Shown here one piece after another: positions 795 through 12,965 of a stretch of 64,000 nt of DNA. The DNA comes from Salegentibacter lacus (GTDB lineage Bacteria; Bacteroidota; Bacteroidia; Flavobacteriales; Flavobacteriaceae), in assembly GCF_020164555.1 (NCBI RefSeq), contig NZ_JAIQZB010000014.1, positions 1 through 64,000 on the forward strand, read 5' to 3'. The notes beneath the pieces were generated by a model that did not search any database, was not told where the DNA came from, and saw nothing but the letters and a program-made list of their open reading frames with translations. How positions within the stretch are numbered: position 1 is the first letter of the stretch; the number at the start of each line of letters is the position of its first letter. The translations under genes and the position numbers were made by a program.

Positions 795-2103
795 CACTAG
801 TGTCCGGTTAAGGAGTATGTGAATCATTGGGAAGTATTACTATATAAAGGATAAACGTTCATTGAAATATTTTTCGATTTGAAATTGAATTAGGGAAAAT
901 GATTGGAGCTTTGCCGGATGAATAAAGGCAGGACAATTTTATCACAGGTTTTGGATTTTATATCCAAATATGAGTTTGACAAATGTGTAGCGAAGTATAA
1001 TGGCAATTATAGGGTCAGGAGTTTTACTTGCTGGGAACAATTTATCGTGATGATGTTTGCCCAGTTCACCTATCGTGAAAGCTTACGAGATATAGAGTCG
1101 TGTTTGGCTGCAATCTCTGGTAAACTCTATCACAGCGGAGTGAAAAGTAAAGTGAAGCGATCCACCTTATCAGATGCCAATGAAAAACGGGATTGGCGTA
1201 TTTATGCTGAAATTGCACAGCTCCTGATAGGAGAAGCCCGGGAACTTTATAAGGAAGACCATAATTTTTCTGTAAACATCGATGAAATTGCCTATGCCTT
1301 GGACAGTAGTACCATTGATTTGTGTTTATCCCTGTTTCCATGGGCCAAATTCCGAAAAAATAAGGCAGCTGTTAAAATGCATACCCAATTGGATTTAAGA
1401 GGCAATATTCCCACTTTTATTGAGATTACGGATGGTAAAGTGCACGATGTAAATATTCTGGATGCTTTGACCTTAGAGCCAGGTGCTTTTTATATTATGG
1501 ACAGGGCTTATCTTGACTTTGAGCGGCTTTACCATTTAAATGAATGTTTGAGTTTTTTTGTGATTCGGGAAAAACGCAATTTTAATTACAGAAGGGTTTA
1601 TTCTAACAAGGTGGATAAAACCTTGGGGTTTAAGTGTGATCAGATCATAAAGCTCACGGGGTTTTATAGCAAGCAGAAATATCCAGAAAAACTCCGGAGG
1701 ATCAAATATTTTGATAAAGAGACAGGGAAAACTTTAGTTTTTTTAACTAATAATTTCACCTACCAAGCAACGATTATTGCTGAGCTATATAAAGAAAGAT
1801 GGAAAATCGAATTATTTTTCAAATGGATTAAGCAACATCTGAGAATCAAGAGTTTTTTTGGAACAAGCTTGAATGCGGTTTATACCCAAATATGGATAGC
1901 AGTAAGTGCCTATCTGATAATTGCAATTATGAAGAAAAGACTGAAAATAGAGCTTGAACTTTACACTATTTTACAAATTTTGAGTATTAGCCTCTTTGAG
2001 AAAGTAACTGTAAATCAATTACTTAACAATAAAGAATACAGAAACAATATTAATGACGATTATAACCAACTAGAAATGTTTGATTTATAACCGGACACTA
2101 GTG
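795..2103 (+). mobile_element. IS4-type insertion sequence, complete, 1309 bp
   Basis: The ends are a perfect 16-bp inverted repeat: CACTAGTGTCCGGTTA at 795-810 and its reverse complement at 2088-2103. It is flanked by the 9-bp direct repeat ATCAAAAGT at 786-794 and 2104-2112, a target-site duplication. The element carries one intact transposase gene on the plus strand, opposite to the interrupted gene. Perfect ends and duplication point to a recent insertion. Confidence 0.92.
918..2090 (+). CDS. IS4-family transposase (DUF4372 N-terminal domain)
   Basis: This is a DDE transposase that moves the surrounding 1.3-kb element. The start MNKGRTILSQVLDFISKYEF at 918 matches the usual start of DUF4372/IS4 transposases; the frame is open upstream to a TTG at 903, but that adds nothing conserved. 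The N-terminal domain runs over about residues 1-90. The catalytic acidic residues are visible in ALDSSTIDLCL, in IMDRAYLDF, and as the Glu of ERWKIELFFKWIKQ, the YREK-like box. At 390 residues it is full length and uninterrupted, so it is probably active. It ends 13 bp before the right end of the element. Confidence 0.93.
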   Translation: MNKGRTILSQVLDFISKYEFDKCVAKYNGNYRVRSFTCWEQFIVMMFAQFTYRESLRDIESCLAAISGKLYHSGVKSKVKRSTLSDANEKRDWRIYAEIAQLLIGEARELYKEDHNFSVNIDEIAYALDSSTIDLCLSLFPWAKFRKNKAAVKMHTQLDLRGNIPTFIEITDGKVHDVNILDALTLEPGAFYIMDRAYLDFERLYHLNECLSFFVIREKRNFNYRRVYSNKVDKTLGFKCDQIIKLTGFYSKQKYPEKLRRIKYFDKETGKTLVFLTNNFTYQATIIAELYKERWKIELFFKWIKQHLRIKSFFGTSLNAVYTQIWIAVSAYLIIAIMKKRLKIELELYTILQILSISLFEKVTVNQLLNNKEYRNNINDDYNQLEMFDL

Positions 2104-2112
2104 ATCAAAAGT
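2104..2112. repeat. Target-site duplication, right copy (ATCAAAAGT)
   Basis: This is the second copy of the 9-bp duplication, abutting the right inverted repeat of the IS. Confidence 0.9.
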
Positions 2113-3476
2113 ATGATCTATATGACCTGCAGTTTTTAATTCCAACGCAGTATGTTTCACGAATGAAACATCACTTTTTCCTTCTAAAAGAAGCATTGCA
2201 GACGCATTTTTATCTACAGGGTTTGGCAAAACTCCTAGTGTAACAGCAATTTTTTCAAATACTTCATCTGTTCCTAGTTCAATTTTTCTGTTGTTACCGT
2301 CTTTTTCAATAAACCTTAAACTATCTAATGGAAGTAGCCCTGCTAATACTGGTGTATGTGTTGTCAAAATAATCTGAGAATTACCAGTATTTGATAAATC
2401 CATAAATGCTTGAATCAACATTTCTTGATGATCCGGATGTTGAGAGGTCTCTGGTTCTTCAAAGGCGAAAATTATTTGACTTCCATCGTTTTGTTCTCTT
2501 AATCTTTCTGCTTCTGCTCTGAAAAAATTTAATAGAATTAGTCTTCTTACGCCACTGCCTCTTTTGTTTATCGGAATGTCGTCTTCTGATTTAATTGTTA
2601 ATTTAAATTGACTATCAAATTTAGGTTCGGTTTTAAATTCAGGATTTAATTCGTCAGCTAAATCTGGTGACATCTCTTTTAACTTTTTCAATGTTCTTTT
2701 TGCCGTATTTATAGCTTTATTCCTGACTTGTTCTTTAATATGTTCAATCTCATCATCCAATTCAGATAACGCCTGTCGAACTGCTATTTTCATCGGGTCT
2801 GTTACTTCCTTGTCATCATCTTTACTTTGTCTGTCAGATTGAAATAAAGCATAAATCGGAAGATAATTTTTTAAAGTATCATAGACTTTTTTGGTGTCTT
2901 CTTTATCTACTAAAAGTTCCGTCTCCTGAATTTCTAAATCTTGGAATGATTCCCAGATTGCTTTTCTTATTGATGAATTTATACTTGCGTTGTAATTATC
3001 CTTACCAATCTCAAGGGATTCCGCTCTTTTTTTTAGTTCAGTTCTTTTTAGAGCTAATAAATCACCTGCATTCTCTGCAGAAGGGTGATTGCATACAATA
3101 AAAACTTTCTCTTTAGGTTTTGCAGCAGTTGCAGTAAATACCTTTTTAATTTCTAATTTTCCACCAGAATTTAAAAGTTTTTCAGCTTCTAATGAAGTAG
3201 GATTGGCAGCGTCAATAATTATTTCATCTGGAAAATCTGAAAATGTACAAGAGATCTCAATATTTTTATCAGCAGCATTTATATTCAAATCTTCTTTCTC
3301 GCAATTCACTAATGAGTTATTAAAGAAGATTTCAAGAGCTTCTAAAATAGTTGATTTCCCTGCATCATTTTTCCCTATGAATGAAGTTAAATTTGATATT
3401 GGTATTTCAGTATCATCTTTGTACCCTCTAAAATTTTTGATTTTTACTTTTTCTAATTTCATTGGTTAGGTTTCTT

Positions 3477-3721: not shown

Positions 3722-4075
3722 TTACATAGAATGTATCTCTATAATTCTTTCTTCTAATTGTTTGCTTTTGCTCCCATTCTTATTTTGTTTTGGGATTTTT
3801 TGATATTTAATCTCAATAATATCTTCTTTTGGAATGAACTTTGGCAAAAGTTCACATAAGGATTTCAGCTTTAATGCTTTTGCGATTAAAGCTAAATGTC
3901 TAATACTGTATTTGTCGGGTTGTCCTAAAGCCTCAACTTTTCCTACAAAGCTTTTACTTAAATTCATAAGCTCACTTAACTGGCGTTGAGAAATGTCATT
4001 TTTCTCCCGTAATCTTCGAACTCGATTTATAATTTCGTAGTCAAGTCTGGATATTTTAACTGAAAAATTTTCCAT
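3722..4075 (-). CDS. XRE-family helix-turn-helix regulator
   Basis: This is a 117-residue DNA-binding protein. A single Cro/C1-type HTH covers about residues 12-75 (RRLREKNDISQRQLSELMNLSKSFVGKVEALG), followed by a basic, Lys-rich tail. It is transcribed away from the structured RNA locus at 4124-4993. The 20 bases beyond its start codon contain the palindrome GCTCC-N8-GGAGC (4082-4099), which overlaps the -33 element of a plus-strand promoter. The probable role, inferred from this arrangement, is repression of its own gene and of the divergent transcript. It has no effector domain, and its biological signal is unknown. Confidence 0.85.
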   Translation of the reverse strand: MENFSVKISRLDYEIINRVRRLREKNDISQRQLSELMNLSKSFVGKVEALGQPDKYSIRHLALIAKALKLKSLCELLPKFIPKEDIIEIKYQKIPKQNKNGSKSKQLEERIIEIHSM

Positions 4076-4081
4076 AATTAT

Positions 4082-4099
4082 GCTCCGATTATTTGGAGC
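4082..4099. promoter_or_regulatory. Palindromic operator between XRE gene and divergent transcript
   Basis: GCTCCGATTATTTGGAGC has perfect 5-bp arms around an 8-bp centre. It lies 6 bp from the XRE start codon and covers the TTTG of the -33 box of the plus-strand promoter. This is the expected position for an XRE autoregulatory site. Confidence 0.55.
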
Positions 4100-4123
4100 G
4101 TTTGTTTTTTGTTATTATCTTTG
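4092..4123 (+). promoter_or_regulatory. Bacteroidota-type promoter for the structured RNA
   Basis: The -7 element TATCTTTG (4116-4123) fits the Bacteroidota consensus TAnnTTTG. A TTTG at 4092-4095 lies 20 bp upstream, where the -33 box is expected. Transcription would start near 4130 on the plus strand. Confidence 0.55.
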
Positions 4124-4433
4124 TTTCAGTTATATAAGCGACAATTAGAAGAAAGAGTTTTTAGCTCTCTCTTAATACGATGTCACTCATGAACGAAAAC
4201 CGTCAATTTTCCCTATGAGTAGACCGTGAGCTCGCTGTCTATTGGAATTTATATCTTTGCGATATAAACCAATGGGCGGGTCTCATGTTAGTCTTTGGGG
4301 AACCAAGTTTCGGCTTGGCGGTTCTTGACGGTACCACGTTAAAGCATTGAGGCTCGCTTTATTGGTTTTTAATCATTAAAGCACTTCACTGGCTTCCTGA
4401 GTATACATCGTTTACATAATAAAAGTCAATATT

Positions 4434-4574
4434 ATGAAAACGAGTAAAGCAAATCTATCAAAGCACCTCTGTTGCAAATCATTAGTCGCAGGCATCACCC
4501 ATTGTGATCCCGAACAGGTACAATCACATCCCCTTCAATCTATCTTAAAGAACATAATATGTGCGCCAGAATAA
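4434..4574 (+). CDS. 46-residue Cys-rich ORF inside the structured transcript
   Basis: An ATG-initiated frame starts with MKTSKANLSKHLCCKSLVAG and ends in IICAPE. It has four Cys (a CC pair, then THCDPE and IICAPE), a basic N-terminus, and neither a signal peptide nor a membrane segment. It begins 23 bp after the outer helix closes at 4411, so the ORF would follow a folded leader. It could be a real small protein, a leader peptide, or chance. I do not recognise a characterised family. Confidence 0.35.
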   Translation: MKTSKANLSKHLCCKSLVAGITHCDPEQVQSHPLQSILKNIICAPE

Positions 4575-4672
4575 TGTGGGCGTAACCGGTAGTAAAAAGC
4601 CCTGCCTTTTGCCCGGTTATACCGGCCCGCTATCCAAGAGTTAACAAAATAGGGTAGCGATAGGGATTTAGG

Positions 4673-4723
4673 CCACTACAATAATATAGTTATTCGCACT
4701 GCTATAAATGTAGTAGGTTTTTT
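4673..4723 (+). terminator. Terminator-like hairpin with T-run
   Basis: Arms CCACTACA (4673-4680) and TGTAGTAGG (4709-4717) pair with one bulge, with an inner TATAG/CTATA pairing, followed directly by TTTTTT (4718-4723). It would end a transcript of about 590 nt started near 4130. Confidence 0.5.
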
Positions 4724-4831
4724 CTCTTCGTGCAAATACGAATTCTTATTTCATAGGTAAGCGGAGCCGGTTTTTTGCTCTTACATTTTAATAGGCCAAA
4801 GTGGTCGGCAGTAGCTATTACTGTATTCAAT

Positions 4832-4874
4832 AATTCTTGATTGCGGGATCAAGGAATTCTTATAAATAATCCCG
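4832..4874 (+). promoter_or_regulatory. Two mutually exclusive hairpins
   Basis: AATTCTTGAT (4832-4841) pairs with ATCAAGGAATT (4848-4858). CGGGAT (4844-4849) instead pairs with ATCCCG (4869-4874). The two stems share bases 4848-4849, and the second also uses the loop of the first, so only one can form at a time. A run of T residues lies at 4885-4890. This geometry recalls attenuators, but the function is unknown. Confidence 0.35.
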
Positions 4875-4966
4875 TGGGTTGCTGTTTTTTGATGCCCTAT
4901 AATTTCTAACAGCTTTGGGCGGGGCCTCTTTGGGGCACTGGGAATATAGATTTGGGTTAATAGGTG

Positions 4967-4993
4967 CTAACGCATAGGGGCGTTAGGTTTTTA
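4967..4993 (+). terminator. Rho-independent terminator before the SusC operon
   Basis: CTAACGC (4967-4973) and GCGTTAG (4980-4986) form a 7-bp stem with a 6-base loop, followed by GTTTTT. It closes the upstream transcript and separates it from the susC operon. Confidence 0.7.
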
Positions 4994-5029: not shown

Positions 5030-5103
5030 CCTTTATAAAGGTTATAAGCTAAAAAGCCTTCCCTTACTAAAGATTGGCGTCTGAGTGGGGAAGGCCTAAG
5101 CTT
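5030..5103 (+). promoter_or_regulatory. SusC leader: palindrome plus stable hairpin
   Basis: CCTTTATAAAGG (5030-5041) is a perfect 12-bp palindrome. It is followed by a hairpin with inner stem GCCTTCCC/GGGAAGGC (5056-5063 with 5088-5095) and outer stem AAGCT/AGCTT (5046-5050 with 5099-5103). The hairpin ends 38 bp before the susC start codon, so it lies in the operon leader and could control elongation or translation. Confidence 0.45.
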
Positions 5104-5141: not shown

Positions 5142-8129
5142 ATGAAAAATAATTATTCGCGCCTTAAATGGGTGGCACTAATTATTCTGGGCGGGATACT
5201 CTTCTTCCTGTCCAAAGCTGCACAAGCAGCAACCACTACCCTTCCCTTGCAAGAGCAAGAAGTCTCGGGTTTAGTAGAAGATAAAAACGGCCTTCCTATT
5301 CCAGGCGTGACCGTAAAGGTTAAAAATACCAATAGAGGAACAGTAACTAACCTGGATGGCGAGTATAACATCACTGCTCCTGCCAAAGGCATTTTGGTTT
5401 TTTCCTATATAGGTTTCAGAACTGTAGAAATCGCGGTAGAAAATAATGCAGAGATAAATGTTCAATTAGAAGAAGATGTTGCCTCACTTGGCGAAGTAAA
5501 AATTAATGCTGGTTATTATACCACTACTGAAAGGGAACAAACAGGGAATATTTCTAAAGTTACTGCAGAGGAAATAGAACTGCAACCGGTGGTGAGCCCA
5601 ATACAAGCCTTACAAGGGAGAATGGCCGGGGTAGAAATAACTCCGGGAGGCAGTAATCCCGGCACCGCTTCAACTATCCGAATAAGGGGCACAAACAGCC
5701 TTCGTGAAGAAGGAAACTACCCTTTATATATTATTGACGGGGTTCCAATAAATTCTACACCGGTAGAAACCAATTCAATTATAGGAACGGCTGGTATCGA
5801 CCCACTCAATAACTTAAATGTTTCTAACATAGAGAGTATTGAAGTTTTAAAGGATGCCGATGCTACTGCTATATACGGGTCGCGTGGAGCTAACGGAGTT
5901 GTTTTGATTACCACTAAAACCGGGAAACAACGTGGAACAGGTCTCGAAGCCAGGTTTTATACCGGCGTAGCCACAGTTCCCAATCGGCTGGACCTATTAA
6001 ATACCGAAGAATATCTGGAAGTAAGAAGAGCAGCTTTTGAAAACGACGGGGTTGAACCTACAGCACAAAATGCTTATGATTTGGTAACGTGGGATCAGGA
6101 TCGCTACACCGACTGGCAAGACTTCTTTTATGGTGGAACTGCTGAAACCACCAATGCCAATATTTCCTTTTCAGGAGGGAGCGATAAAACTTTCTTTAGA
6201 TTAGGTGGCTCTTATTTTTCTCAGGGCACGGTCTATCCAGGAGATAATACTTACAATAAAATAACTGGTAATTTTAACCTTGACCATTCATCTGAAGATG
6301 AAAAACTAAAACTCAATTTTTCTGCGAATTACGGGGTGGATATAAATGATCTTTTCTGGAGCAATAGTATAAGTTCGTCAACAGTTTTATTGCCTCCAAA
6401 TGCACCTGATCTTTTTACTGAAGATGGTAGTTTAAATTGGGAAGAATGGGCAGTAGCAGATTTAGAAAACCCTCTGGCCGGTTACTATAATCGCGGCAGA
6501 ACGGAAACCAACAATTTATTGTCAAACCTTGGTTTATCCTACCAAATTCTAAATAACCTACAGGTACGATTAAATGCCGGTTATACATATTATGAAAGTC
6601 AGGAATTAATGAAACGCCCAGGCAGGTCGTATAATCCTTCGGCAGGAGAACCTAACAATTCTTTTCATTTAAATTCCCATAGAAAATCCTGGATTCTTGA
6701 ACCTCAGTTGATCTTTAATGACAATTTCGGTGATGTCAATTTAGATGCTATAATAGGTGGAACCTTTCAGGAAAATACGAATAGCCAGGTTAGATACCAG
6801 GGATCCGGTTATGTAACGGAATCACTTATTGGCAATTTAGATGCAGCTGAACGGGTAATTAATGCTTCAAGCCAAACAAACCAGTACAGATATGCTGCAG
6901 TCTTTGCCCGGATAGGAACAAACTGGAAGAGGAAAATATTTATAAATTTCACAGGGCGACGTGACGGCTCTTCGCGCTTCGGTCCGGAAAATCGTTTTGC
7001 GAATTTCGGAGCAATAGGTGCAGCCTGGATTTTTACAGAGGAAGAGCTAATTAAAAATGCGCTATCATTTCTGTCATTTGGAAAATTAAGGGGTAGTTAT
7101 GGTAGTACTGGAAATGATCAAATTGGTGATTACGGTTACCTGGATTCATACGAGGCAACCCCTGGCCCTGGAGGATTATACCCCGTTTCCCTGGCTAACC
7201 CCTCATTTTCATGGGAAGTTAACAAAAAGTTGGAAGCCGCACTGGAATTAGGTATTTTCAAAGACAAACTGAATCTTGGGATAAGCTGGTACCGCAACCG
7301 TTCTTCAAACCAATTGGTAGGATATCCCTTGCCCGCTATTACGGGGTTCAATACCGTTCAGGCAAATCTTCCTGCCACGGTAGAAAATAGCGGTTGGGAA
7401 GTGGAAATATCTTCTTTGAATTTTAACTCAGATGATTTTCGCTGGCAGACTTCATTGAATTTTAGTATCCCGAAAAACAGCTTAGTAAGTTATCCGGAAA
7501 TTGAACAGTCTTCGTATGCAAATACTTATCGAATTGGTCATCCTGTAAACATATCACTTTTATATAGATATGAAGGAATTGATCCAGAAACGGGATTATA
7601 TCAAATTGCGGATATTAATGGTGATGGAAGTTTTGATTATGAAGACCGGGTGGTAATCCAGGATTTAACCAGAGAATATTACGGCGGAATAAATAACAAC
7701 CTCAGTTTTAAAAATTTTAGCCTCCAGTTCTTATTACAGTATGTAAAACATGAAGGTATGGTTTCCTTTTTTAATGCCGGTAGACCTACCAATCAACGGG
7801 ATGTGGTTTTAGACGCTTTAAATTCAAACGAAGATTACCAAAGAATATCTCAGTTACCAGCCACCAATCAAGCTTATAACAATGCTATAAATTCAAATTT
7901 AGCTATCCAGGATGCTTCCTTCTTACGGTTAAAAACATTTTCGCTAGGATATAATTTACCAGGAAGTCTTCTGCAATCATTTGGATTAAGGGACGGAAAA
8001 ATTTTTCTTACGGGGCAGAACTTGTTTACAATCTCTCCTTACGAAGGTTTAGATCCTGAACTATCATATTCCAGCACTTCATTTGGAAACCTTCGGACAG
8101 TAACTGCCGGTCTTCAATTTAACTTTTAA
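5142..8129 (+). CDS. SusC/RagA-family TonB-dependent outer-membrane transporter
   Basis: This 995-residue barrel imports large substrates with a SusD partner, driven by TonB. Residues 1-30 form a signal peptide. A carboxypeptidase-regulatory-like domain follows (about 38-125, from VSGLVEDKNGLPIPGVTVKV), then the plug (about 130-260, with LQGRMAGVEI, IRIRGTNSL, YPLYIIDGVPIN and the SRGANGVVLITTKTG closing motif), then the 22-strand barrel ending in AGLQFNF. It is the first gene of a tight operon: susD starts 9 bp after its stop, and an M16 protease follows. The protease and the absence of any glycosidase suggest a peptide rather than a glycan substrate. That reading is an inference. Confidence 0.93.
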   Translation: MKNNYSRLKWVALIILGGILFFLSKAAQAATTTLPLQEQEVSGLVEDKNGLPIPGVTVKVKNTNRGTVTNLDGEYNITAPAKGILVFSYIGFRTVEIAVENNAEINVQLEEDVASLGEVKINAGYYTTTEREQTGNISKVTAEEIELQPVVSPIQALQGRMAGVEITPGGSNPGTASTIRIRGTNSLREEGNYPLYIIDGVPINSTPVETNSIIGTAGIDPLNNLNVSNIESIEVLKDADATAIYGSRGANGVVLITTKTGKQRGTGLEARFYTGVATVPNRLDLLNTEEYLEVRRAAFENDGVEPTAQNAYDLVTWDQDRYTDWQDFFYGGTAETTNANISFSGGSDKTFFRLGGSYFSQGTVYPGDNTYNKITGNFNLDHSSEDEKLKLNFSANYGVDINDLFWSNSISSSTVLLPPNAPDLFTEDGSLNWEEWAVADLENPLAGYYNRGRTETNNLLSNLGLSYQILNNLQVRLNAGYTYYESQELMKRPGRSYNPSAGEPNNSFHLNSHRKSWILEPQLIFNDNFGDVNLDAIIGGTFQENTNSQVRYQGSGYVTESLIGNLDAAERVINASSQTNQYRYAAVFARIGTNWKRKIFINFTGRRDGSSRFGPENRFANFGAIGAAWIFTEEELIKNALSFLSFGKLRGSYGSTGNDQIGDYGYLDSYEATPGPGGLYPVSLANPSFSWEVNKKLEAALELGIFKDKLNLGISWYRNRSSNQLVGYPLPAITGFNTVQANLPATVENSGWEVEISSLNFNSDDFRWQTSLNFSIPKNSLVSYPEIEQSSYANTYRIGHPVNISLLYRYEGIDPETGLYQIADINGDGSFDYEDRVVIQDLTREYYGGINNNLSFKNFSLQFLLQYVKHEGMVSFFNAGRPTNQRDVVLDALNSNEDYQRISQLPATNQAYNNAINSNLAIQDASFLRLKTFSLGYNLPGSLLQSFGLRDGKIFLTGQNLFTISPYEGLDPELSYSSTSFGNLRTVTAGLQFNF

Positions 8130-8138
8130 TCAAAAATT

Positions 8139-9533
8139 ATGTTCATTAAAAAAAGAATAAAACAGATAATTGTAGTTTTTCTCGCTTCCATTTTAATTGC
8201 CTGCGAAGATTTTGTGGAGGTTGATGCCCCCGATTATAAAATAATAAGAGATGATGTTTTTAGTAGTGAAGAAACAGCTAAAAGCGCTATGACAGGAATC
8301 TATAACGAGTTATTCCGATCCTCTTTTAGTAATGGGACACAGTATAGCGTAACAGTTTTAGGTGCCCTCTCAGGAAACCTCCTTAAAAACATCAGGGAAA
8401 CGAACCTCACCCGAATGGAATTCCAACAGCATGAAATCACTCCTGAGAATACCTCAAACCTATTTCTTTGGACCAGTGCCTATAATATGATTTATATGAC
8501 GAATGCTTTTTTGGAAGGGTTACAATCTTCGGAAAAAATAAGTTCAGAAGTTAAAAATCAGTTACAGGGGGAGGCTAAATTCGTGAGGGCCTTTACGTAT
8601 TTCTATTTAGTTAATCTTTACGGGGATGTTCCACTTGTACTCACCACTGACTACGAGCAAAATGAACTTGCTTCTCGAACTTATTCCGAGGAAATTTATA
8701 CGCAAATCATACTGGATTTAGAGGATGCAATTGAAGTTTTAACGAGCGAAAACCAGGATATACGGACCAAAGTTAATAGGTATACGGCTATGGCTTTGCT
8801 GGCCAGGGTTCATCTTTATAACCAGCAGTGGCAAAAGGCTGAAGAGTTGAGCAGTCAAGTTATTTCGAATAACTCCTATATTTTATTAGAAGAGTTGAAT
8901 GATGTTTTTCTAGCTAACAGCCAGGAAGCTATATGGCAGATATCACCTGTAGGAAGCGGAGCGGCAACAACACATACCAATGAAGGTAATTTTTTTATCA
9001 TAGATCCTGTTTTCTCATTCCTGGCAAGTGTAAAATTAGATGAAAATTTTATCGAAAATTTCAGTGAGGAGGATCTTCGATTGTCAACCTGGATCAGCTA
9101 TAATGAAAGCCTTAACGCTTACTTCCCTTTTAAATATAAAATATGGAATAGTAATGAGCAGCCAAGTACGGAGTATTCCATGGTGCTACGATTAGCCGAA
9201 CAGTTTTTAATAAGGGCTGAGGCCAGACTTATGCAAGACAATTTTACCGGTGCAATAGAAGATATTAATACAATTCGAAATAGAGCAGGTCTGGCACCAC
9301 TTTCCAATACGGATAATCTCGAAACTGAAGTACTCCTTGATGAATTAATGGAGCAACGTAGCAAAGAAATATTTACCGAATGGGGCCATAGATGGTTAGA
9401 TCTTAAGAGAACAGGCAGGTATGAACATATTTGGGAGAATAATCCATTATGGGAAGAAACCGACCTGCGCTATCCTATCCCAGCAGATGAAAGAATAAAG
9501 AACCCTAACCTAACTCAAAACCCTGGATATTAA
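8139..9533 (+). CDS. SusD/RagB-family surface lipoprotein
   Basis: This 464-residue lipoprotein forms the lid of the SusC transporter and binds substrate at the cell surface. The N-terminus MFIKKRIKQIIVVFLASILIAC has a lipobox with Cys22, followed by EDF. TPR-like helical repeats run through the protein. The C-terminal RagB segment shows RAEARLMQDNFTGAIEDINTIR (split over two helices) and the family motif EWGHRWLDLKRTGR, and the protein ends in the usual RIKNPNLTQNPGY. It lies between susC (9-bp gap) and the M16 protease gene (3-bp gap), so the three are almost certainly co-transcribed. Confidence 0.93.
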   Translation: MFIKKRIKQIIVVFLASILIACEDFVEVDAPDYKIIRDDVFSSEETAKSAMTGIYNELFRSSFSNGTQYSVTVLGALSGNLLKNIRETNLTRMEFQQHEITPENTSNLFLWTSAYNMIYMTNAFLEGLQSSEKISSEVKNQLQGEAKFVRAFTYFYLVNLYGDVPLVLTTDYEQNELASRTYSEEIYTQIILDLEDAIEVLTSENQDIRTKVNRYTAMALLARVHLYNQQWQKAEELSSQVISNNSYILLEELNDVFLANSQEAIWQISPVGSGAATTHTNEGNFFIIDPVFSFLASVKLDENFIENFSEEDLRLSTWISYNESLNAYFPFKYKIWNSNEQPSTEYSMVLRLAEQFLIRAEARLMQDNFTGAIEDINTIRNRAGLAPLSNTDNLETEVLLDELMEQRSKEIFTEWGHRWLDLKRTGRYEHIWENNPLWEETDLRYPIPADERIKNPNLTQNPGY

Positions 9534-9536
9534 CTT

Positions 9537-12386
9537 ATGAAATCATTAAAAACATTAGTAGTCTGGAGCTTGATATTCTTATGGGTTTTACCAGTGTTAG
9601 CACAAACTGCCTACCGTAATTCTGAGGATAGTTTGACTCTGGATAAAAGCATAAGAACAGGTGTATTAGACAATGGCCTTACTTATTTTATAAAACCTCT
9701 GGAAAATTCTAATCAACAAATAACCATGAATTTTCTAGTAAAAGTAGGATCCCATGATGAGCAACAACATGAGTTAAATTTCGCTCATCATATTGAACAT
9801 CTATCATTTAGACCGAGCGCTAATTTCCCTGATGGTCTTAAAAATAATTCTAAAATATTGAGCCAGTTTGGAATGAATATGTATGATATTTACGGAAGAA
9901 CAGGCGCCGGGGTTACACGATATTTCTATAATGTTCCCTATGAAAATGAGAAGGCAATAAATACTGGTTTACTCTGGTTTAAAGACATTGCTTCAGGTCT
10001 GGACCTTACCAAAAAAAGTATAGATAGGGAAAGAGGTGTACTACTGCAGGAATATCGAGGTGGTGTGGCCAGTCGTGCTCAAACAACAGCGTACAATGAT
10101 GTGCACAGCACACTCTTCTCTATAGTTAATAGCAAAAAATCTTTTTCTTCACATAATAGAAATTTTCCGCACCAGGATTTACAAAAATTTTATAATAAAT
10201 GGTATCAACCGCAGCGAATGGCTGTGATAATTGCTGGGAATATAGAAAATACTGAACAACTAGAAGAAAACATTAAATCCATTTTCCAGGAATTAAAGTC
10301 CTCAGAAAATAAAGTAGAACCCAAAGGAAAGGAACAAAGTAATCCAAAGATTGAAAAGAATTTCACAAGCGTTGTGCGAAATTCAAATGGAAATTCTGCA
10401 TATGAGTTTAAAGCTGTCAACATGTATCTTTTTTATAAGCATAAGGTCGACAAAAAAAAGGATGAAGGGTTGGGCAGACTACAAAGACAAATACAAGGAG
10501 AAATTGTTACGGATATACTTAAAACGAGGTTTAATGAAAATTCTAAGATAGACGATAGAACAACTATCTATAGTTCATATACCCCTGTTTGGAATATCCC
10601 ACCAGATATGTTAACTATTACTATCAATACTGAATTGCAATATGAAAAAGTAGCGCTGGAAAATACTTTATATATTTTAAGACAATTTGTAGAATATGGA
10701 ATTACAGAAGAAGAATTTGAAAATGCCAAAGATAATAGTTTAGAAACCCTAGAATCTTATAATACTTCGGAAAGCCCATATTGGGTAAAAGAAATAGAGA
10801 GGTATTTTGTAAACGACCAAACCCTGCCGTCTAATAAAAAGGAAATCATTATAAATTGGCTATCAAAACTTTCCAAAGAGGAAATAAATCGTCTAATAAA
10901 AGAAATAATAAAACCTTCACCGGATAAGATGGGCTTGATATTTCCTGAGGACAGCGAATCTCCTTTTTCCTCAAAAGAAAAGACCCAGGAAATAATTAAG
11001 AAAAAAGCTATGGAAAAAGTGTTTCCATATAAACCTAAATCTGAAATAAAAAGATTATTGAGCCAAAACCAAATGGATTCACTGCCAAATGGTAAAAAAT
11101 TGAAAGCCGAACCAGGCAAATTAGATACTGAAATTTATTCACTAAAGAATGGGGCAAAACTCATCCTAAAACCAATGAAAAGCAAAAATTCCAACACTTT
11201 AACTATCCGGGGATTTTCACCATTTGGGGCTTCTTGTTTTCCGAAAGAAGAATACAACAGTACAATGTTTGCTACATCAATTATTAAAAGTTCAGGAGTC
11301 GGATCTTATGAAAAGAAGGATTTAAAAAAATTTTATGAAAACACGCAATCAATAAAATTGGGTTTTGATCCTTATATCTTCAGTAATGAAAGTGGTTTTG
11401 AATCTGAAGTATCTATTAAAGAACTAAATAAATTTCTTCAGCTTTTATATTTATATTTTACAAAACCCCGTAAAGACCAGGCAGCTTTTGAAAACTGGAA
11501 AAAAGGATATTTACAGGATGCTAGATATATTATAAACCCCTCAAAGGACCTTATTGATGCTTTGAAGAAAGTAACGAGAGACTCCACAAGGCTTCCCATA
11601 GCCTCAGATTTGGTAAAAGCATCTCAAAGGGTAAATCTTAATGTAGCACATAGAAATTATCAAGAACTATTTGGGAATATAGGGAACTTCACTTTTATTG
11701 TTACAGGTGATTTTGATAGTGATGCAGTGCTCACCGCTTTTCAGAAATATGTAGGAAATATTCCCTCCAATTCAAAAACAATTTGTACTGATAAAAACAA
11801 AGCAATTGAGATACCTGATGGTCCCAAATATTATGAGCTAAGCGCCTCAGACCTTTATGAAACAGAAAATTCATTTTATGGAATAAGATTTGTTCATAAT
11901 CCTCCAGACAAAAAAGTTTGGAAAGAAGAACTAAAGATTAGGGTACTAGGCCAAATGCTTAATAGTTTAATATATGACTTAAGGGATAAAGAGGAACTTT
12001 CATTATATACAATTAGTGCTGGCGCCTATTTTGATAGAAGGACACAGCGATTTGAAGTACAGTTCCGTTTCAGCTGCCTACCTGAACAATTACCTATCAT
12101 AAGAGATAAAACAAATAATATAATTGAAAAATTAAAAAAGGGTAATGTGCCGGAGAAAGTTTTTAAAAATCAAAAAAACAGAATAAGATCCATTTACACA
12201 CCCCAGGCACTAAATCAGCCTTCTTATATTGCGAAAAAGTTGTATCGATATTACAGATTTGAGGAACCTCCGATAGCATCATCAACTATAGAAAATTATC
12301 TCAAAGACCTAACTTTTAAGGAAATCATTCAAACAGCTAAAACATATTTAAAACCAGAATACATGCACGAGGTAAAAATGGAATAA
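9537..12386 (+). CDS. M16 (pitrilysin/insulinase) family zinc metallopeptidase
   Basis: M16 enzymes enclose and cut unfolded peptides in a two-half chamber. The 949-residue protein has a signal peptide (cleavage near LAQ, residue 23), so it acts in the periplasm or at the outer membrane. The inverted zinc motif HxxEH is H84-HI-E87-H88, and the third ligand Glu172 ends ERGVLLQE, with the standard spacing. Two M16 halves are present; the second half, from about residue 530, has no zinc motif. It is the last gene of the susC-susD operon, and a perfect 15-bp stem terminator follows it. The likely role is to process a peptide handled by the SusCD transporter. Confidence 0.92.
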   Translation: MKSLKTLVVWSLIFLWVLPVLAQTAYRNSEDSLTLDKSIRTGVLDNGLTYFIKPLENSNQQITMNFLVKVGSHDEQQHELNFAHHIEHLSFRPSANFPDGLKNNSKILSQFGMNMYDIYGRTGAGVTRYFYNVPYENEKAINTGLLWFKDIASGLDLTKKSIDRERGVLLQEYRGGVASRAQTTAYNDVHSTLFSIVNSKKSFSSHNRNFPHQDLQKFYNKWYQPQRMAVIIAGNIENTEQLEENIKSIFQELKSSENKVEPKGKEQSNPKIEKNFTSVVRNSNGNSAYEFKAVNMYLFYKHKVDKKKDEGLGRLQRQIQGEIVTDILKTRFNENSKIDDRTTIYSSYTPVWNIPPDMLTITINTELQYEKVALENTLYILRQFVEYGITEEEFENAKDNSLETLESYNTSESPYWVKEIERYFVNDQTLPSNKKEIIINWLSKLSKEEINRLIKEIIKPSPDKMGLIFPEDSESPFSSKEKTQEIIKKKAMEKVFPYKPKSEIKRLLSQNQMDSLPNGKKLKAEPGKLDTEIYSLKNGAKLILKPMKSKNSNTLTIRGFSPFGASCFPKEEYNSTMFATSIIKSSGVGSYEKKDLKKFYENTQSIKLGFDPYIFSNESGFESEVSIKELNKFLQLLYLYFTKPRKDQAAFENWKKGYLQDARYIINPSKDLIDALKKVTRDSTRLPIASDLVKASQRVNLNVAHRNYQELFGNIGNFTFIVTGDFDSDAVLTAFQKYVGNIPSNSKTICTDKNKAIEIPDGPKYYELSASDLYETENSFYGIRFVHNPPDKKVWKEELKIRVLGQMLNSLIYDLRDKEELSLYTISAGAYFDRRTQRFEVQFRFSCLPEQLPIIRDKTNNIIEKLKKGNVPEKVFKNQKNRIRSIYTPQALNQPSYIAKKLYRYYRFEEPPIASSTIENYLKDLTFKEIIQTAKTYLKPEYMHEVKME

Positions 12387-12748: not shown

Positions 12749-12965
12749 AATATAAAGTTTTAATATATACCTACTCTTTGAAGGATTTTCGGCTTCTCCT
12801 ACTTTCTGCGCAAAAAGATTTAAAACGTTTCTTTTATGGTGTAAAATTTCAGTGCAATACTGAAAATTGAAAGTAGTATAAGCTTAAGGCTACTATCATT
12901 TACAATAGTAAATTTCATCAAATAACCTCAAAGAAAATGGTTGCTAAAGCCGTAAAACTGTTCTG

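Follow-up and report, generated by a model that had tools for sequence, protein, structure and literature searches.

Transcription attenuators, among them trp-type leaders and the expression platforms of riboswitches, decide between mutually exclusive terminator and antiterminator structures. In the Bacteroidota, SusCD importers are central to feeding and are usually described as being controlled by sigma/anti-sigma or hybrid-sensor systems, and cis-antisense sRNAs of the DonS type provide RNA control of susCD in Bacteroides PULs. A further system, dCas12f-sigmaE, reportedly carries out RNA-guided transcription. Here we describe a region of the Salegentibacter lacus genome that we are somewhat inclined to read as the regulated 5′ leader of a susC-susD-peptidase operon, acting as a bistable attenuator.

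The window, that is, the whole stretch of 64,000 nucleotides that we analyzed, carries a susC-susD-M16 peptidase operon at 5142-12386, preceded by a leader of about 1 kb. The operon consists, on the plus strand, of susC (5142-8129; SusC/RagA family, TIGR04056, E 5.7e-220), susD (8139-9533; SusD-like_3, 1.3e-30) and a gene of the M16 peptidase family (9537-12386; Peptidase_M16_C, 2.1e-24; Peptidase_M16, 3.5e-7). On its other side the leader is bordered by a divergent XRE/HTH regulator gene of 117 aa on the minus strand (3722-4075; Pfam HTH_3, E 1e-6). The palindrome GCTCCGATTATTTGGAGC at 4082-4099 is a putative XRE operator, and TATCTTTG at 4116-4123 (plus strand) is a candidate promoter box, which we take to fit the Bacteroidota -7 box and which would place the transcript start near 4130. 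The XRE gene and the palindrome beside the promoter are located as the initial annotation had described them. Different palindromes were seen by eye at the equivalent position of two related loci (L039 and L041), and an HTH_3 gene is also present at the corresponding locus of Galbibacter. A TAnnTTTG box at a hairpin tip was considered as a second promoter and rejected, as inspection by eye revealed no -33 box at the proper distance.

The XRE gene is adjoined by a DDE transposase gene (903-2090) and an AAA_15 ATPase gene (2098-3462); at other loci the neighbors, judged by eye, include a zeta toxin-like gene (L039) and a DNA methyltransferase-like gene (L143). The XRE gene end (3743-3761) and the leader start (4141-4159) share a 19-nt inverted repeat, 95% complementary, whose two segments would yield transcripts that are alike, not complementary. 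Beyond the operon, the Rfam DUF805b RNA motif was found on the minus strand at 12768-12801.

The core of the leader is a structured RNA domain on the plus strand (4177-4411), here called type 1, which is supported by the folds of 11 sequences, the window's included, and by covariation. It is closed by pairing of ACGATGT (4177-4183) with ACATCGT (4405-4411). Within lie a variable helix, S1 (AACG, 4192-4195, with CGTT, 4337-4340; 3 of 4 pairs changed on both sides), an 8-bp helix formed by ACCGTCAA (4199-4206) and TTGACGGT (4325-4332; double-sided changes in 5 of 8 pairs and pairing in 93.2% of cells), and a long inner hairpin whose arms span roughly 4240-4255 and 4261-4274. All the nested complementary segments named in the initial annotation were located. 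The folding energy of 4165-4420 was -85.6 kcal/mol (z -6.65), which none of 200 dinucleotide shuffles equaled. An extent of 0.6 to 0.9 kb had been proposed, and 4124-4993 as a whole does fold better than its shuffles (z -5.25; 0/20 equally good), but the folded unit proper is 4177-4411, about 235 nt, and the remainder of the stretch consists of other leader modules.

The proposal that the RNA belongs to no recognized class agrees with our searches. At the gathering threshold, Rfam 15 gave no family match at the element in the window or its relatives, permissive Rfam searches returned only matches far below threshold, and the intron matches in L034, L041, L046 and L086 fall away from the leaders. 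A blastn comparison of 4124-4430 with plasmids and phages and a search of viral contigs for the end pattern of type 1 both came back empty. In the literature listings and abstract openings that we consulted, we found no description of the conserved, structured leader RNA that the window carries. The compact branched fold and the patchy distribution of type 1 would suit a remnant of a catalytic or mobile RNA, such as an intron, retron or ribozyme. We regard such an origin as very improbable: no Rfam family and, with regard to group I and II introns and retrons, no intron model has a match at the element, the scanned flanking genes encode a transposase, an ATPase, XRE, SusC, SusD and a peptidase and no reverse transcriptase, and the position before an operon recurs.

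Related leaders were identified by DNA searches at 27 susC loci, which belong to 10 of the 15 genomes of the genus. Three short matches (L061, L075 and L078) lie in other genes and were dropped; one of the three is the sole match in G011, a genome that a tally of 11 would include. A short divergent ORF precedes the leader at all 27 loci; judged by eye, most of these are XRE-like, and the domain scan covered part of the set. The leaders are modular, with several types of 5′ domain and susC-proximal parts in common. The type 1 model R2, built from the window and L039, recovered in the genus both of its sources plus one match at E 0.05, and in 299 genomes of the family the window, one strong match (L271, 168 bits) and one weak match (E 0.004). 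A second search, of GTDB genomes, used a pattern that combines the sequence closing the domain on its 3′ side with the beginning of the ORF behind it. It returned nine stretches, from Olivibacter, Sinomicrobium, Zunongwangia, Pedobacter (three), Salegentibacter sp. 24, Galbibacter and one Flavobacteriaceae strain, so that type 1 spans two orders, the Sphingobacteriales (Pedobacter, Olivibacter) and the Flavobacteriales (Galbibacter). With L278, which repeats L039, and L279, which repeats L271, each counted once, and with L041, which R2 missed and which was added by eye, the type 1 set comprises 11 distinct sequences including the window, from six named genera and one unassigned strain. A divergent ORF lies directly upstream in eight of the nine stretches; the ninth, L272, ends too early.

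Folded alone, each of the 11 sequences adopted much the same architecture as judged by eye. In the structure of the antiterminator state defined below, 28 of 69 pairs were changed on both sides, across genera (shuffled mean 18.8; 0/500 shuffles reached 28), and 60 cells were changed on both sides compared to 30.2 after shuffling (0/500); these tests, like the swap tests below, take the sequences without regard to their relatedness. The check for covariation in homologues that the initial annotation had suggested bears the RNA out. Moreover, 80.2% of cells were paired compared to 73.9% after shuffling (0/500). Sliding the structure along the alignment left 37.9 to 42.9% of cells paired, a control that favors the tested structure because this was derived from the window sequence. 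One measure of covariation, further pair types, does not stand out from chance, its value being reached in 38 of 500 shuffles.

In Galbibacter an HTH_3 gene, the type 1 RNA, an ORF beginning with MKT, SusC and SusD follow one another as in the window, and a peptidase-like ORF was seen by eye after SusD. TonB receptor genes lie behind the type 1 RNA in L272, L274, L276 and L277 as well, with another ORF intervening in L272, L276 and L277. In L273, the scanned ORF behind the RNA (at +1175) encodes a sigma factor.

The inner part of the domain can pair in two ways. The pivot strand X (4268-4288) may pair with strand Z (4224-4245), the 5′ arm of the apical hairpin, on the antiterminator side, or with strand Y (4342-4366), all on the plus strand. 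X:Y is a terminator-like stem with a duplex energy of -26.5 kcal/mol, followed by TTTTT at 4366-4370. When partners were swapped among the 11 type 1 sequences, none of 2,000 swaps gave energies as good as those with a sequence's own partner, for Z:X and X:Y each. Both sides were changed in 8 of the 21 X:Y pairs, a number that 2 of 500 shuffles reached, and 84.7% of X:Y cells were paired compared to 78.6% after shuffling (0/500) and 36.7 to 48.5% after sliding. An arrangement expected of an attenuator, two mutually exclusive helices that have one strand in common and that both covary, is present.

Throughout the type 1 set (11 of 11), the computed energy was lower for the fold with Y unpaired than for the fold with X:Y forced. 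The values for the window were -58.3 and -56.6 kcal/mol; elsewhere the Y-unpaired state was ahead by 2 to 12 kcal/mol, and in L041 by 20. Termination would therefore need a trigger or kinetics. As aligned, the X:Y duplex of L041 is weak (-8.9), and L041 in this alignment, like L278, L280, L272 and L274, has an interrupted or missing T run after X:Y. A terminator scan of the stretch did not list the X:Y stem; its two terminator-like entries lie at 4967-4986 and, over the palindrome, at 4080-4101, and carry no weight by themselves, since shuffles average 1.4 such sites.

The sequence itself shows the operon context, the fold, the fact that both pairings covary and an in-frame ORF end. In the attenuator model that we favor, the promoter divergent from the XRE gene would drive the leader RNA, and XRE would probably repress at the palindrome, as this palindrome and the divergent gene suggest. 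Pairing of X with Z would form an antiterminator, and transcription would continue into the leader ORF and susCD; pairing of X with Y would form a terminator and cut the transcript short at about 240 nt. A signal would tip the balance between the two, and because the antiterminator is computed to be more stable, this signal would more likely induce termination. The leader RNA would probably decide, as a switch, whether the importer is made. The overall reading of the initial annotation is supported in part, namely as to a large folded RNA outside Rfam beside an XRE gene; it missed the role as leader of a susC-susD-peptidase operon, the leader ORF and the alternative, terminator-like pairing.

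The leader ORF (4434-4574, plus strand) has 46 codons and reads MKT...LKNIICAPE*. The claim that the stretch contains no long ORF is correct in that none on its plus strand exceeds 46 aa, but this one has in-frame counterparts in relatives. We compared 13 ORFs, 11 behind type 1 RNAs and those of L031 and L032, which have a different 5′ domain. An end of the form KN..[CR][AS]P. plus stop occurs in 10 of the 13 and counts as evidence; the initial MKT does not, since the start ATGAAAACG was part of the search pattern. Length is 46 codons in the window, L031, L032, L039, L041 and L274 and 35 codons in L275-L277 and L280, with longer ORFs in L273 (97) and L279 (148) and a different end in L272. The conserved end shows silent codon differences (AAG/AAA, TGT/TGC, GCG/GCC). 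Among the ORFs of the window, L031 and L032, nonsynonymous (6, 8 and 5) and synonymous (4, 4 and 6) differences are about equally frequent, and the 46-aa peptide used as a query in 299 genomes matched only itself.

Further plus-strand modules follow. A second terminator-like hairpin, CCACTAC..GTAGTAGG with a T run (4673-4723), was read from the sequence and is absent from the scan's list, and a third, also with a T run (4967-4993), was found by the scan. The leader peptide and these two later hairpins may serve as further checkpoints. Between the hairpins lies module II (4835-4931), in which the alignment indicates a hairpin, GCGGGA/TCCCGT, and inspection by eye a possible pseudoknot, GCCC/GGGC. 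Its string TCCCGTGGG occurs in 24 of the 27 leaders of the genus, and module II is a second candidate regulatory RNA within the same leaders. Module III (5056-5095), a hairpin of GCCTTCCC and GGGGAAGGC in the susC leader, is conserved in the genus alignment. A third leader type (L050, L083 and L086) has the ends GAGTCTCG/CGAGACTC and a 40-codon ORF, MKT..NGPSAAERLF.VKP..PI.

A sister RNA, type 2, is more widespread. Its model, R1, was built from 17 leaders of the genus. Under stricter filters it found type 2 in 54 of 299 genomes of the family (47 of 236 genera), with up to 7 copies each, and it also matched 12 of the 15 genus genomes. No match to R1 was obtained in the window, L031, L032, L039, L041, L045, L048, L050, L083 or L086. 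In 70 matches (67 distinct), 24 of 31 pairs were changed on both sides and the covariation score was 0.430 vs 0.129, in an alignment that was made to R1 and hence leans towards the model. Type 2 follows the same X/Y/Z logic as type 1; in the swap test (n = 17), 0 of 2,000 swaps were as good for Z:X and 0 of 2,000 for X:Y. From this likeness of layout, the two types may be related.

The context was examined for 41 of the 98 matches in the family; these 41 come from 40 genomes. By a set criterion, 37 of the 41 loci have a divergent ORF, of HTH_3 type in 22 of these. A downstream ORF of at least 150 aa lies within 1.5 kb at 37 loci, the first being SusC-like in 25, a sigma factor in 8 and something else in 4. 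This repeated position before susC or sigma factor genes, together with the leader ORF and its conserved end directly after the element, argues against a free-standing, trans-acting RNA that ends near 4370 or at the closing helix while susC uses a promoter of its own downstream. We consider that reading rather unlikely, granting that type 1 ends closed, that about half of the aligned genus type 2 leaders have a T-rich run after the outer helix, that several copies occur per genome and that susC is far away.

Type 2 also points to a link with RNA-guided transcription. Six of the 41 type 2 loci, one of them in the genome of the window (G000:C1), run into genes for an ECF-like sigma factor and a Cas12f-like protein. 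At the latter locus (L157) the sigma protein matches the solved chain RpoE (9n9q, E 1.2e-90) and the Cas12f-like protein matches nuclease-deactivated Cas12f (9n9c, E 3.3e-188), which is also a chain of 9n9q. A conserved scaffold (GGGTGCTTGTACACCC..GCATATACAAC) with its guide lies downstream of the Cas12f-like gene; type 2 as the dCas12f guide RNA was rejected, the scaffold being a separate element after dCas12f. Matches to dCas12f occur in 12 of the 15 genus genomes, two of which have only fragments or broken copies, and in 13 of the 299 family genomes, where the same applies to G035 and G301. Type 2 is present in every one of these 13 genomes, where 2.3 would be expected (hypergeometric 6e-11, kinship ignored), and thus in all 10 of those outside the genus (1e-8). 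Conversely, 41 of the 54 type 2 genomes have no dCas12f match; the RNA is therefore probably older, with guides exploiting it.

We compared 47 distinct 14-nt guides with the leaders of the genus; beside a G, 19 of them match a leader with at most 2 mismatches. In class A, the main class, 14 of 28 guides do so, invariably at strand X of type 2; 4 of these have no mismatch, and 12 beat all 100 shuffled sets; since class A was named by motif, the count leans towards a match to X. Outside class A, 14 of 19 guides match no leader. Against the susC leader, 4 of 10 class B and 1 of 4 class D guides come within 2 of 14 bases, compared to 0 of the remaining 5; three of these five matches beat all 100 shuffles, most are closest to leaders of other genomes, and we take them as suggestive only. 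The class C guide has 5 mismatches to module II. Within their own genomes, 8 of 46 guide copies match a leader with at most 2 mismatches, 7 of them at X and the other at module III.

Module III resembles some dCas12f guides of sister species. At L217, L219, L220, L221, L227 and L228, the first bases of the guide RNA resemble the module III hairpin, and a type 2 match lies upstream of five of the six operons; a regulatory cascade is possible.

In the genome of the window, sigmaE and dCas12f form two operons accompanied by divergent HTH-like genes, L157 (G000:C1:309951-312170) and L209 (G000:C118:149289-150650). Searches of this genome with scaffold patterns gave 3 and 4 sites, all of them outside the contig of the window, and define four guide RNAs, one distant from dCas12f (G000:C118:172703). 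Compared with the window leader next to a G, the four guides had at best 3, 4, 4 and 6 mismatches of 14; none fell at strand X, the best (3 mismatches) lying at 4918. The window leader as a target of its own genome's guides was rejected for want of a convincing match.

Type 2 copies, in which guides match next to a 5′ G, are putative dCas12f-sigmaE targets; the predicted tie to RNA-guided transcription appears good for type 2 and only indirect for the window copy. One might go further and regard the element as primarily a DNA target, at which guides bind X and transcription starts within the terminator, bypassing it. The class A and own-genome matches to X, the co-occurrence in 13 of 13 genomes and the two proteins of one solved complex speak for this idea. 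We nevertheless judge it improbable: most type 2 genomes have no dCas12f match, half of class A and 14 of 19 other guides fail to match, class labels are motif-based and the co-occurrence ignores relatedness, the four own-genome guides have at best 3 of 14 mismatches to the window copy, and that at a site other than X, and covariation extends to helices distant from X. More tentatively than the attenuator reading of the window leader, we suggest that types 1 and 2 could form a Bacteroidota RNA superfamily, a bistable gate on SusCD importers, whose pivot strand dCas12f-sigmaE guides evolved to read, with RNA-guided initiation inside the terminator overriding attenuation. If so, classical attenuation and RNA-guided transcription would meet in one element. 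A conserved two-state RNA beside XRE-type regulators would add a control layer to SusCD, and the type 2 form, in 54 of 299 sampled family genomes, offers a directly testable link to RNA-guided transcription.

Compared with the described systems, the window leader shares with dCas12f-sigmaE that genomes of the genus carry dCas12f and that the sister RNA has a pivot strand to which guides match; it differs in that it is not a guide RNA, the scaffold being separate, and in that its own genome has no clear guide match to this copy. Unlike known attenuators, it has no known ligand motif or Rfam match, its ORF comes after the first switch and not inside it, and a 235-nt core lies beside a divergent XRE gene. 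Like them, it has one strand that takes part in two covarying helices, one of which is followed in the window by T residues, and it lies before an operon, with a leader ORF close by. With DonS-type sRNAs it would share RNA control of susCD, as we propose for this leader; those sRNAs are antisense, whereas the window RNA is a sense-strand leader with a conserved fold.
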